NCBI GenBank assembly: GCA_035528375.1
Contig: DATKYS010000018.1
Location: 1 to 5,301, forward strand
Length of the DNA stretch: 5,301 nt
From: a bacterium
Lineage (GTDB): Bacteria > RBG-13-66-14
Reading direction: 5' to 3'
A program made the translations under genes and the position numbers. The notes beneath the pieces were generated by a model that saw only the letters and a list, made by a program, of their open reading frames with translations, did no database searches and had not been told where the DNA came from. Shown piece after piece: positions 200 to 5,169 of this stretch. How positions within the stretch are numbered: the stretch's first letter is position 1; each line of letters opens with the position of its first letter.

Positions 200-1627
200 G
201 TGAGCGAGACCGTCTTCGATCCTACACCGGCGCTGGTGGACACCCACGCCCACCTCGACGACCCGCGCTTCGAGGGCGAGGTGGAAGCGCTGCTGGCGCG
301 GGCCCGCGCCGCGGGGGTCATCCGCGTCGTGACCATCGGGGTGGACCCGGAAACCTCCCGCCGGGCGGTGGAGCTGGCCCGTAAGTACCCCTTCGACGTC
401 TCGGCCGCAGTGGGCGTGTCGCCGCACGACGCCGGAACCTACGACGAAGCCGTCGCCGCGGAGCTGGAGAGCCTGGCCGGGGAACCGGGGGTGGTCGCCT
501 GGGGCGAGATAGGCCTGGACTACCACCACGACCGCGCGCCCCGCGAAGTCCAGCGGCGTGTGTTCCTGGACCAGCTCCGGCGCGCGCGCGACCAGGGGCT
601 CCCCGCGGTCGTCCACTGCCGCGAGGCCCACGCCGACCTCGCGGGCTGCCTGGAGGAGGCGGAAAGTTACCCCGGATTGGAAGAGCCGCCCCGCGGCGTG
701 CTGCACTGCTTCTCCGGGACGGCGGATGACGCCCGACGAGCCGTCGCCCTGGGGTACATGATCGGCATCGGCGGCGTGGTGACCTTCGCCAACGCCGGGG
801 CGCACCGCGAGGTGGTCCGGTCGCTGCCGCCGGAATCGGTGGTGCTGGAGACCGACGCGCCCTACCTCGCGCCACAGCCCCACCGGGGCAAGCGCAACGA
901 GCCGGCCTACGTGCGCCTGACGGCGGAAAGGGTGGCCGAGCTGCACGGGGCGGGATTGGGGGAAATCGCCCCGGTCACCACGGCCAACGCCCGCCGGCTG
1001 TTCAGGCTGCCGGAGCCCGAGGGCTTCGGGGGTGCTCCGGCATACGCCCTGGGCCGCAACCTCTACCTGAACCCCACCAGCCGCTGTACCAACGATTGCG
1101 CCTTCTGCGTCCGGCGGCGGAGGCTGGGGCTCGGCGGCTACAGACTCTGGCTGGACCGCGAGCCCGGGGCCGGGGACCTGATCGAGGCGGTGGGCGACCC
1201 CGCGTCCTACGACGAGGTGGTCTTCTGCGGCTTTGGCGAGCCGCTCCTAAGCGCCCAGATCGTGGCCGAGACGGCCCGGTGGCTCAAAGAACGCGGCGCG
1301 CGGGTCCGGGTGAACACCAACGGGACCGCCCACCTGGCCCGGGGTGAGACCGCCGCCGGGCTCCTCGAACCGCTCCGCGGGCTGGTGGACGAGTTCTCCG
1401 TGAGCCTGAACGCCGCCGACGCCGCGGGGTACGTAAAAATCTGCCGGCCGGTGTTCGGGGAGGCCGCCTTCACCGCGGTGCTGGATTTCACCAGAACCGC
1501 CGTGGGGCTCGGATTCGCGGTCACCGCCAGCGCCGTCGCCCTGCCGGACACGGACCTCGCGCCCGTGGAGAGGCTGGCGGCCGGGCTGGGCGCCCGATTC
1601 CGCGCCCGGACCTATAAAAACGACTAG
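200..1627 (+). CDS. TatD-family hydrolase fused to a radical SAM domain
   Basis: This is a 475-residue two-domain protein. Residues about 12-270 are a TatD-type metal-dependent hydrolase (amidohydrolase fold, DNase-like, presumably cytoplasmic). The expected metal ligands are all visible: H16 and H18 in DTHAHLDD, E103 in GEIGLDY, H139 in VVHCREA, H169 in LHCFSG and D219 in ETDAPYLAP. Residues about 282-475 are a radical SAM domain with the cluster motif C296-x3-C300-x2-C303 (RCTNDCAFC) and a later CGFGEPLL segment in the place of the SAM-binding GGE motif. TatD-linked radical SAM proteins are a recognised family (TIGR04038, from memory) found next to or fused to TatD; their substrate is unknown to me. 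The GTG start at 200 follows AAAGG at 184-188 with an 11-base gap, which is a little long. An internal GTG at 236 would leave MDTHAHLDD, a typical TatD beginning, but has no ribosome site. Both domains look complete and intact. Confidence 0.93.
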   Translation: MSETVFDPTPALVDTHAHLDDPRFEGEVEALLARARAAGVIRVVTIGVDPETSRRAVELARKYPFDVSAAVGVSPHDAGTYDEAVAAELESLAGEPGVVAWGEIGLDYHHDRAPREVQRRVFLDQLRRARDQGLPAVVHCREAHADLAGCLEEAESYPGLEEPPRGVLHCFSGTADDARRAVALGYMIGIGGVVTFANAGAHREVVRSLPPESVVLETDAPYLAPQPHRGKRNEPAYVRLTAERVAELHGAGLGEIAPVTTANARRLFRLPEPEGFGGAPAYALGRNLYLNPTSRCTNDCAFCVRRRRLGLGGYRLWLDREPGAGDLIEAVGDPASYDEVVFCGFGEPLLSAQIVAETARWLKERGARVRVNTNGTAHLARGETAAGLLEPLRGLVDEFSVSLNAADAAGYVKICRPVFGEAAFTAVLDFTRTAVGLGFAVTASAVALPDTDLAPVERLAAGLGARFRARTYKND

Positions 1628-1639
1628 GGGAATCACCTG
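1626..1639 (+). promoter_or_regulatory. Ribosome binding site before a CTG start
   Basis: AGGGGA at 1626-1631 overlaps the TAG stop (1625-1627) of the TatD-radical SAM gene and sits five bases before CTG at 1637. No ATG, GTG or TTG occurs in this frame between that stop and GTG 1682, and GTG 1682 has no Shine-Dalgarno-like sequence in front of it. The placement therefore favours CTG as the start of the sigma factor gene. Confidence 0.5.
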
Positions 1640-2497
1640 ACCGTCTTCAAAACCAAAGACCCCACCCTCGACGCCTACCTCGTGGAGATAAACCGGTTCC
1701 CCGTGCTATCGCGGCAGGAGGAGCTGGAGCTGGCCCTCCGCGCCAGGGCCGGCGACGAGGTGGCCACCAAGCGCCTCATCGAGGCCAACCTGCGCTTCGT
1801 GGTCAAGATTGCCTTCAAGTACGCCCACCAGGGACTCCCGCTGACGGACATCATCTCCGCGGGCAACGAGGGACTGATAATCGCCGTGCGCCACTTCGAG
1901 CCCGAGCGCGGCATCCGCCTCATCTCCTACGGCGTGTGGTGGATCCGGCAGTCCATAAGCCGCGTCCTGGCCAACGACTCGCGCACCATCCGCTTCCCCT
2001 TCTACATCTACTGCGACCTGTACCGGATGATACGGATGCGGGAGGTCTTCCAGAGCCGCCACGGCCGCCAGCCGTCACTCGAAGAGCTCTCCGACGAGAC
2101 GGGCATCACGGCGGAAAAGCTCCAGCGCATCTCGACCCTGGCCACCAACAGGCTCTCCCTCAACCGCCCCATCGTCCCCGACGGGGAGACCGAGGTGTTG
2201 GACCTGTTGACCGACTCCCAAGTCGAGAGCCCCGAACGGTTGCTCATCGCCGAGGACCGGCAGCGGGAGCTGGAGGAACTGATGGCGAAGCTGCCCAAAC
2301 GCCAGCGGCGGATCGTGGAGTTGCACTACGGGATCGGCCACAAGGCGATGACCCTGCGCCAGATAGGGGAGGTCTTCAACCTCTCCCGGGAGCGGATCCG
2401 GCAGATCGAGGCGGTCGCATTCGCAAAGCTCCGGAGGGAGGCCTCGACGGCCCTGACCGCGGAGGACGCCCTTGACACGGACCGACGCGCCGAATAA
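1637..2497 (+). CDS. RNA polymerase sigma factor, sigma-70 family (RpoD/RpoS-like group)
   Basis: The product binds core RNA polymerase and directs it to promoters. It has 286 residues if started at CTG 1637, or 271 from GTG 1682. In 286-residue numbering, region 1.2 is about 11-47 (DAYLVEINRFPVLS, like the usual D-x-YL-x-EI-x-x-x-P-LL), region 2 about 53-121 (GNEGLIIAV, SYGVWWIRQSISR, RTIRFP), region 3 about 122-180, and region 4 about 205-268 with the helix-turn-helix TLRQIGEVFNLSRERIRQIEA at 239-259. There is no region 1.1, and the size fits a group 2 factor or a short primary factor. The -35-reading helix (RERIRQIEA) is fully conserved. The segment after RTIRFP is unusual: FYIYCDLYRM replaces the common VHMIETINKL. 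The CTG start is inferred because the conserved DAYL lies upstream of GTG 1682. The gene is nine bases behind the previous stop, in the same frame, so co-transcription is likely. Confidence 0.93.
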   Translation: MTVFKTKDPTLDAYLVEINRFPVLSRQEELELALRARAGDEVATKRLIEANLRFVVKIAFKYAHQGLPLTDIISAGNEGLIIAVRHFEPERGIRLISYGVWWIRQSISRVLANDSRTIRFPFYIYCDLYRMIRMREVFQSRHGRQPSLEELSDETGITAEKLQRISTLATNRLSLNRPIVPDGETEVLDLLTDSQVESPERLLIAEDRQRELEELMAKLPKRQRRIVELHYGIGHKAMTLRQIGEVFNLSRERIRQIEAVAFAKLRREASTALTAEDALDTDRRAE

Positions 2498-2700: not shown

Positions 2701-2708
2701 GGTCGGCC

Positions 2709-2732
2709 GGGCCGGGGGGCGCGGGGCCGGGG
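2709..2732 (+). other. Potential G-quadruplex just after the Trm112-like stop
   Basis: Four G-runs occur in close succession: 2709-2711, 2714-2719, 2723-2726 and 2729-2732, separated by loops of 2, 3 and 2 bases. This satisfies the usual G3+ with loops of 1-7 pattern on the + (coding) strand, nine bases after the stop at 2700. In RNA it could slow polymerase or protect a 3' end. It may equally be a by-product of the G-rich repeat. Confidence 0.4.
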
Positions 2733-2733
2733 C

Positions 2734-2760
2734 TATCCTTCACCGCACGGGGCCGGGAAG
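2734..2760 (+). repeat. Repeat core, copy A
   Basis: This is the 27-base core beginning TATCCTTCACCGCACGGG and ending CCGGGAAG. It is identical to the copy at 3002-3028 and differs from the copy at 2886-2912 by one base. It is followed by a GGGGCGCGGGGGCTGGG stretch shared with copy B. Confidence 0.8.
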
Positions 2761-2773
2761 GGGCGCGGGGGCT

Positions 2774-2806
2774 GGGATTTAAAAAGAGGCAGGGGATTTT
2801 AATCCC
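2774..2806 (+). other. AT-rich inverted repeat inside the repeat cluster
   Basis: GGGATTTAAAA (2774-2784) can pair with TTTTAATCCC (2797-2806) with one bulged T and a 12-base loop. An alternative tighter hairpin, AGGGGATTTTAATCCCTT, occupies 2791-2808. Neither is followed by a T-run, so this is not a standard intrinsic terminator. It stands out as the only AT-rich island in the cluster and separates repeat copies A and B. Confidence 0.35.
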
Positions 2807-2885
2807 TTGTCAGTCACCCTCGCGCGCAGTGACCGGGGGGTGAATAGGGGCCGACCGGGCCGGAGGGCGCGTAGGGGGCCGGTTT

Positions 2886-2912
2886 TATCCTTCACCGCAC
2901 GGGACCGGGAAG
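2886..2912 (+). repeat. Repeat core, copy B
   Basis: This is the second 27-base core, with one base change (GGGACC in place of GGGGCC) relative to copies A and C. It shares its 5' flank (a GGCGCGTAGGGGGCCGG stretch) with copy C and its 3' flank with copy A, so it bridges two unit types. Confidence 0.8.
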
Positions 2913-3001
2913 GGGCGCGGGGGCTGGGTTCATTTTTCACTGCGCGGGGTCGGGGAGCGAGTAGAGCCGACCGGGCTGGCGGGCGCGTAGGGGGCCGGTT
3001 T

Positions 3002-3028
3002 TATCCTTCACCGCACGGGGCCGGGAAG
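3002..3028 (+). repeat. Repeat core, copy C
   Basis: This is the third 27-base core, identical to copy A. Its 3' flank runs directly into GCGAATAGAGCCGACCGG, the second repeat part, whereas copies A and B carry a GC-rich stretch there instead. Confidence 0.8.
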
Positions 3029-3214
3029 CGAATAGAGCCGACCGGACCGCAGGCGCGCGGGGTCCGGGGAGCGCGTAGGTGGCCGAAGGGGCGACCGCGG
3101 CGCACGAGACGCGGCGGCATCCCTTCGGTCTGAGAAACGGCGCAACCGGAGACCGGGGGACGGGCCCGCCGCGCGATGGACCCGCTTCGACCCGCGACAC
3201 GGGAAAGGACCGTC

Positions 3215-4204: not shown

Positions 4205-4218
4205 CGGGGGCCATCGGG

Positions 4219-4284
4219 GTACGCGGAGTTGCCAGCGAAAAACGCATATACCCCGTAGGGGCGGGGCTCCGTCCCCGCCCGCGG
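4219..4284. repeat. 66-bp intergenic repeat, copy 1
   Basis: This copy matches 4335-4400 at 61 of 66 positions; the differences lie at unit positions 3, 7, 14, 21 and 32. The 3' half can fold as GGGCGGGG (4259-4266) with CCCCGCCC (4273-4280) around a six-base loop. The copy begins 14 bases after the nucleotidyltransferase stop, so the hairpin could mark that transcript's end, although no T-run follows. After 4284 the sequence departs into unrelated AT-rich spacer. Confidence 0.85.
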
Positions 4285-4333: not shown

Positions 4334-4334
4334 G

Positions 4335-4400
4335 GTTCGCAGAGTTGTCAGCGATAAACGCATATTCCCCGTAGGGGCGGGGCTCCGTCCCCGCCCGCGG
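4335..4400. repeat. 66-bp intergenic repeat, copy 2
   Basis: This is the second copy of the 66-bp element, in the same orientation as copy 1 and 116 bases downstream. It carries the same hairpin (4375-4382 with 4389-4396). Unlike copy 1 it continues into an extra segment that supplies a second arm (4428-4437), so it looks like the more complete form of the element. Confidence 0.85.
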
Positions 4401-4467: not shown

Positions 4468-5169
4468 ATGACTGTCGAAGAACGGCTGGAGAAGGTGGAG
4501 CGGGAACTGGCCGCCGCGAAACTCCGCACCCGGCGCCTGTTAATCGCCGCTGGTCTGTCGCTTGGGCTCTTGGCCCTGGCCTGGCTTACCACGGGTAACA
4601 CGGGACCGGTCCTGGCCCAGGAAGCCGTAGAGACTGACAGTATCATTCAGGCCAAGAGATTTGTACTGGTTGATGATGATGGCCGTACTCGTGCAGTGCT
4701 GGGCATGACCGATAGCGGACCGAAGCTGAGCATGTTAGATGAAAACGGCGTGAACCGCGCCGTTCTAGCTGTGACCGAAGTCTTCTCAGTACTGGCCCTA
4801 CTCGACGAGAACGACAAGACACGAACGGCGTTGACCGTGTCTAAAGACGGGTCGCAGCTGGATCAATACGATGAGAGCGGCAAGTCTCGCGCCCAGATGG
4901 TAGCGGATAAGGATGGACCGCGGCTACTCCTAGCCGATGAAAACGGTAAGATTCGCACTGCGCTGGGCTTGGATAAGAATGGACCGTTGCTAGGCCTGCG
5001 CGATGATAATGGGATAAGCCGCGTCGCGCTGGGAGTATCTAAGGATAGAATTGAACTGAATCTAATCGACGAAAACAGCAAGCCCCGCGCCCAGTTACGC
5101 GTGACCAGGGACGGGCCAGTGCTGATTCTGGCTGACAAGAATGGCAATACAATCTGGCAAGCGCCGTAG
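4468..5169 (+). CDS. Membrane-anchored protein of eight 22-residue repeats, function unknown
   Basis: I do not recognise a named function. The 233-residue product starts with a charged, probably coiled-coil stretch (residues 2-20), then KLRTRR and a hydrophobic segment at about 24-41. This suggests a single-pass anchor with the N-terminus inside and the rest outside; a cleaved signal peptide near VLAQ-EA (about residue 50) is a weaker alternative. From residue 63 the protein is a regular array with a 22-residue period: 63-84, 85-106, 107-128, 129-150, 151-172, 173-194, 195-216 and a shortened 217-233. The unit resembles P-x-L-x-L-x-DENGK-x-R-x-x-L-x-V-x-KDG. The alternating hydrophobic strands and DENG turns suggest stacked beta-hairpins. 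Similar DENGK repeat proteins occur in other bacteria as hypothetical proteins. The start is well supported: AGGAG at 4457-4461 lies six bases before ATG. Third codon positions are visibly richer in A and T than in neighbouring genes, which hints at transfer or relaxed selection. There is no cysteine and no catalytic motif. Confidence 0.85.
   Translation: MTVEERLEKVERELAAAKLRTRRLLIAAGLSLGLLALAWLTTGNTGPVLAQEAVETDSIIQAKRFVLVDDDGRTRAVLGMTDSGPKLSMLDENGVNRAVLAVTEVFSVLALLDENDKTRTALTVSKDGSQLDQYDESGKSRAQMVADKDGPRLLLADENGKIRTALGLDKNGPLLGLRDDNGISRVALGVSKDRIELNLIDENSKPRAQLRVTRDGPVLILADKNGNTIWQAP

Follow-up and report, generated by a model that had tools for sequence, protein, structure and literature searches.

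Non-standard start codons are rarely documented in bacteria, and gene finders usually allow ATG, GTG and TTG alone. The locus described here raises the question of where translation begins in a sigma factor gene whose frame contains none of these codons between the stop of the preceding gene and a GTG that lies inside a conserved domain. The stretch of DNA analysed (the window, 5,301 nt) is contig C18 of genome G000, from an uncultured bacterial genus, an assembly of 2.63 Mb in 144 contigs with a completeness estimate of 100%. An earlier note on this DNA had named a CTG as the probable start. We present evidence from gene layout, ribosome-binding potential and orthologs that this codon, at position 1637, probably is the start of the sigma factor gene, and consider what such a start would mean for its expression.

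Layout of the locus and the encoded sigma factor

The features on which the argument depends are as follows; a recheck of the letters found the coordinates of the TAG, AGGGGA, CTG and GTG in the earlier note to be exact.

200-1627, plus strand: TatD-family nuclease fused to a TatD-linked radical SAM domain (PF01026, 4e-80; PF04055; TIGR04038, 3e-63)
1625-1627, plus strand: TAG that ends the TatD-radical SAM gene, in the reading frame of the sigma gene, 9 nt 5' of the CTG
1626-1631, plus strand: Shine-Dalgarno sequence AGGGGA, overlapping the TAG stop, 5 nt 5' of the CTG
1637-1639, plus strand: CTG, probable sigma start codon, kept in G001 and G003 and lying within 1-2 codons of the ATG where G006, G004 and G005 start
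1637-2497, plus strand: gene of the sigma-70 family, 286 codons and a stop, with regions 1.2, 2, 3 and 4 (PF00140, PF04542, PF04539, PF04545)
1643-1645, plus strand: GTC, in-frame second codon after the CTG; GGC in G001, CAT in G003
1682-1684, plus strand: GTG, first standard start in the sigma frame, inside region 1.2; GAG in G001 and G003; no Shine-Dalgarno sequence

The TAG, the CTG and the GTG share one reading frame. This frame is open directly after the TAG (GNHLTVFKTKDPTLDAYLVEINRFPVLS) and reads GNHLTVFKTKDPTLDAYL from the TAG to GTG 1682. The upstream gene is filled with recognizable sequence almost to its end, the TIGR04038 match covering residues 281-473 of 475 and the domain ending no more than 2 residues from the TAG. 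The observation in the earlier note that the TAG alone separates two genes of the same frame is confirmed for G000, and the same frame is shared in G001 and G003.

Regions 1.2, 2, 3 and 4 of the sigma factor score above their Pfam cut-offs; region 1.1 is absent, and the open frame is too short to accommodate it. The closest NCBIfam models are rpoS and rpoD, yet every rpoS and rpoD equivalog cut-off is missed (for RpoS, 236 bits against a cut-off of 378.7). From its domain content the protein is best described as an RpoS/RpoD-like alternative sigma factor of group 2 type, which shares regions 1.2, 2, 3 and 4 and its nearest models with that group and differs in falling below the equivalog cut-offs and in an N-terminus about 7 residues before region 1.2. 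Elsewhere in the genome, a separate RpoD-like frame of 615 codons on contig C118 qualifies as the housekeeping sigma factor, and a further sigma gene, with an ATG start, lies on contig C21.

Several other features of the window and genome were recorded in passing. Between the Trm112-like and nucleotidyltransferase genes, window positions 2704-3085 are occupied by intergenic G+C-rich direct repeats containing TTCACCGCACGGG, with a 73-nt unit in three copies at 68-82% identity to the first. A 67-nt direct repeat (4218-4284 and 4334-4400, 93% identical) carries a hairpin-like sequence, GGGGCGGGGCTCCGTCCCCGCCC, in each copy, and an ORF at 4468-5169 encodes an N-terminal hydrophobic segment followed by repeated DENGKxRxxL-like units. 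On the minus strand of contig C7, at about 4723-5383 (L043), a conserved gene is split between two frames and has a longer frame in a relative (L166), a possible frameshift or broken gene.

Candidate start codons and ribosome-binding potential

In the sigma frame of G000, no ATG, GTG or TTG occurs between TAG 1625-1627 and GTG 1682. Codon-by-codon inspection of this interval bore out the description of CTG 1637 as the sole near-start, as it is the only codon there that is one base from ATG. The presence of some CTG within about 18 codons is by itself not rare.

Initiation at GTG 1682, with the CTG incidental, would yield a protein in which region 1.2 is missing its first residues. No standard start comes earlier in the frame, and this is the codon that gene finders restricted to ATG, GTG and TTG would choose. 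The Pfam match to region 1.2, however, begins at about residue 14 of the frame counted from 1628, or about nucleotide 1667, so that region 1.2 does extend 5' of GTG 1682 as the earlier note had maintained. The residues that would be removed are conserved in all orthologs of the family, with L..Y invariant in the alignment, and are also present in solved SigA and RpoS structures. GTG 1682 is moreover preceded by no Shine-Dalgarno sequence (+0.1 kcal/mol), and it cannot be the common start of these genes because the corresponding codon in G001 is GAG, as it is in G003. We consider a start at GTG 1682 very improbable.

The 3' end of 16S rRNA in G000 is standard (CACCUCCUUUCU), and with the tail CCUCCUUUCU the best duplex before CTG 1637 has a free energy of -7.0 kcal/mol at a spacing of 5 nt; the corresponding value in both G001 and G003 is -7.9 kcal/mol. 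The starts of 19 other G000 genes span +1 to -14 kcal/mol, and among CTGs drawn at random from the genome 9% have a site as good as the -7.0 kcal/mol of CTG 1637. The AGGGGA site is thus normal for a gene start, yet it is not proof and is not decisive alone, because, of 14 CTGs inside genes of the window, 3 have a Shine-Dalgarno sequence that matches or surpasses it. A promoter scan upstream of the sigma gene returned nothing useful.

Conservation of the CTG among relatives

Seven genomes of the family were compared, and the sigma gene was found in six of them, the exception being G002, which is 75% complete. A scan of named genomes, from which near records were possibly left out, returned distant sigma factors only. 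The closest relative, G001, belongs to a different species; its sigma protein is 87% identical, with a nucleotide identity of 90% at the junction, which reads TAG GGG AGT CTC CTG ACC GGC TTC AGG TCC AAA GAC CCC. No standard start precedes region 1.2 in this genome, and the TAG-9 nt-CTG arrangement is kept. In the congener G003, the junction reads TAG GAG ATG ACC CTG CCT CAT TAC AGG GAA AAA GAC CCC, with the CTG in place at the same distance from the TAG as in G000 and G001, and with an additional in-frame ATG two codons earlier, directly against GGAG. Among the nine codons that follow the TAG, the CTG is the single one identical in G000, G001 and G003.

The three remaining orthologs, from three other genera (G006, G004 and G005), have ATG starts 6-7 residues before the conserved D/K-P/S-x-L-x-x-Y motif, as does the CTG. 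The earlier note had named orthologs beginning at the position of GTG 1682 as evidence that would count against the CTG; none was seen, G001 having GAG there and the other genera starting near the CTG. The spacing of the two genes varies over the family, from an overlap of 4 nt (ATGA) in G006, where the sigma ATG overlaps the TatD-radical SAM stop and the two genes are in different frames, through 9 nt in G000 and G001, to about 450 nt in G004, where the sigma ATG lies downstream of the TatD-radical SAM gene. In this last genome (L007, G004:C72) the sigma ATG is at locus position 1486, and a TATAAT-like box just upstream gives it the appearance of having its own promoter.

CTG 1637 goes beyond chance because it is common to three species, is the one invariant codon of the nine, follows a normally spaced Shine-Dalgarno sequence and is sited where other genera have ATG. 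On this comparative evidence the sigma gene very likely starts at CTG 1637, read as fMet, directly after the preceding stop, which was the suggestion of the earlier note. The position, the conservation and the Shine-Dalgarno sequence of the CTG can be read from the DNA, and it is initiation at this codon that we infer from them. The non-standard start is conserved in the sense that no ATG, GTG or TTG able to yield the conserved N-terminus exists in G000 or G001. Use of the CTG appears to be required in these two species only, and the in-frame ATG of G003 could be the start in that genome. For comparison, start codons were surveyed between about 1 Mb of G000 and about 0.35 Mb of readable G001 and G002 sequence, a small sample. 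This gave 27 gene pairs with strong coding signal; wherever a pair was clean and both of its 5' ends were available, the partners had an ATG, GTG or TTG in common close to where their similarity begins, and the missing standard start of the sigma gene is therefore unusual in the genus.

The same junction sequences bear on three further explanations. The earlier note had offered, as a plain alternative, that an assembly or sequencing error deleted a normal start from the window. The G000 assembly is fragmented into its 144 contigs, and errors do happen in the group, as indicated by an apparent frameshift in the infC gene of G001; but the TAG-GGG-CTG arrangement without a standard start recurs in G001, an independent genome of a different species at 90% nucleotide identity, and for this reason an error is very unlikely. 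Partial read-through of the TAG, also raised there, would produce a TatD-radical SAM-sigma fusion with no separate sigma start, and the single TAG and the shared frame in all three congeners are compatible with it. The TAG, however, behaves as an ordinary stop: of 25 gene pairs aligned at their ends, 10 finish with TAG in both genomes. The three codons between the TAG and the CTG are not conserved as protein, a Shine-Dalgarno sequence sits at the junction, and the two genes do not share a frame in G006 and are separated by about 450 nt in G004. The fusion thus finds no support in these comparisons, and we consider it very improbable.

Finally, another unusual codon might serve as the start, with GTC 1643 and ATA 1688 as candidates. 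A GTC start has been proven for the sigma factor gene sigR of Streptomyces (PMC5472188), and ATA is the probable start of infC in this family, as described below. GTC 1643 is not conserved, being replaced by GGC in G001 and CAT in G003, whereas ATA 1688 lies inside region 1.2, 3' of GTG 1682, and its use would remove still more conserved sequence. A start at either codon is improbable.

Precedents and a possible link to initiation factor 3

Initiation at CTG 1637 would yield a protein beginning fM-TVFKTKDPTLDAYLVEINRFP..., with ribosomes arriving by way of the Shine-Dalgarno sequence, by termination-reinitiation from the upstream TatD-radical SAM gene, or both. Coupling across +9 nt is possible, although weaker than for overlaps (PMC10666635). 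The window resembles known termination-reinitiation pairs in its short stop-start distance, and the same two genes overlap by 4 nt in G006; it differs from them in its CTG start and in a spacing that places it in the +9 to +12 class, for which independent initiation at the Shine-Dalgarno sequence is also likely (PMC10666635).

CUG is a poor start codon, its first base pairing badly with the initiator tRNA (PMC11497404), and AUU and AUA starts in S. aureus give about 10-30% of AUG output (PMC13009471). The CTG of the sigma gene, badly paired with initiator tRNA and probably opposed by IF3, would be expected to initiate weakly. By extension from this published work on non-canonical starts, expression is probably low, and the level of the sigma factor would vary with IF3 and with translation of the TatD-radical SAM gene. 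A cautionary case is Caulobacter dnaA, in which an upstream CUG with a Shine-Dalgarno sequence bound 30S subunits in vitro and is unused in vivo (PMC8443254). An AUG is available at dnaA, whereas the sigma gene of the window has no usable standard start.

The closest precedent is Streptomyces sigR, whose GTC start is repressed by IF3, holding the sigma factor below the level of its anti-sigma factor (PMC5472188). The two cases have in common a non-standard start conserved within a genus in a sigma gene, a Shine-Dalgarno sequence, and a sigma level that is expected to be limited. They differ in that sigR has a GTC codon, encodes an ECF sigma factor with an anti-sigma partner, carries an extended AGGAGGTG site and is experimentally proven, whereas the window gene has a putative CTG start and an ordinary Shine-Dalgarno sequence and encodes a group 2 type sigma factor behind a TatD-radical SAM gene.

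A second non-standard start is found in the same family. The infC gene, encoding IF3, has the arrangement GGAGGTG-4 nt-ATA in all seven genomes (loci L184-L190; in G000, locus L189, G000:C79:34240-34737), and in six of the seven there is no in-frame ATG, GTG or TTG just 5' of the ATA, G004 having a GTG directly before it. In G001 the gene (L190, G001:C349:6345-6701) is spread over two frames by an apparent frameshift, probably an assembly error, while the ATA region is intact. Elsewhere, infC is known to start with AUU, AUC or AUA, the basis of IF3 autoregulation (PMC5472188), with AUA used in S. aureus (PMC13009471). Given the conserved ATA of infC, start codons are likely to be under IF3 control in this lineage. 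The sigma gene is like infC in its probable non-standard start, and it differs in the codon and the gene concerned and in its ordinary Shine-Dalgarno sequence, infC having a much stronger GGAGGTG and sigR and infC both having extended sites. Control of the sigma gene itself by IF3 is suggested by analogy only.

Rules limited to ATG, GTG and TTG would truncate the sigma factor of the window inside region 1.2. A more speculative reading, which we put forward tentatively, is that selection has kept the CTG as a brake on translation that IF3 senses, wired with the ATA of infC; the sigma regulon would then track initiation fidelity, and the principle of sigR would have evolved a second time, independently. 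The conserved CTG of the sigma gene and the ATA of infC in one lineage suggest that control of sigma factors by start-codon fidelity may recur beyond Streptomyces.
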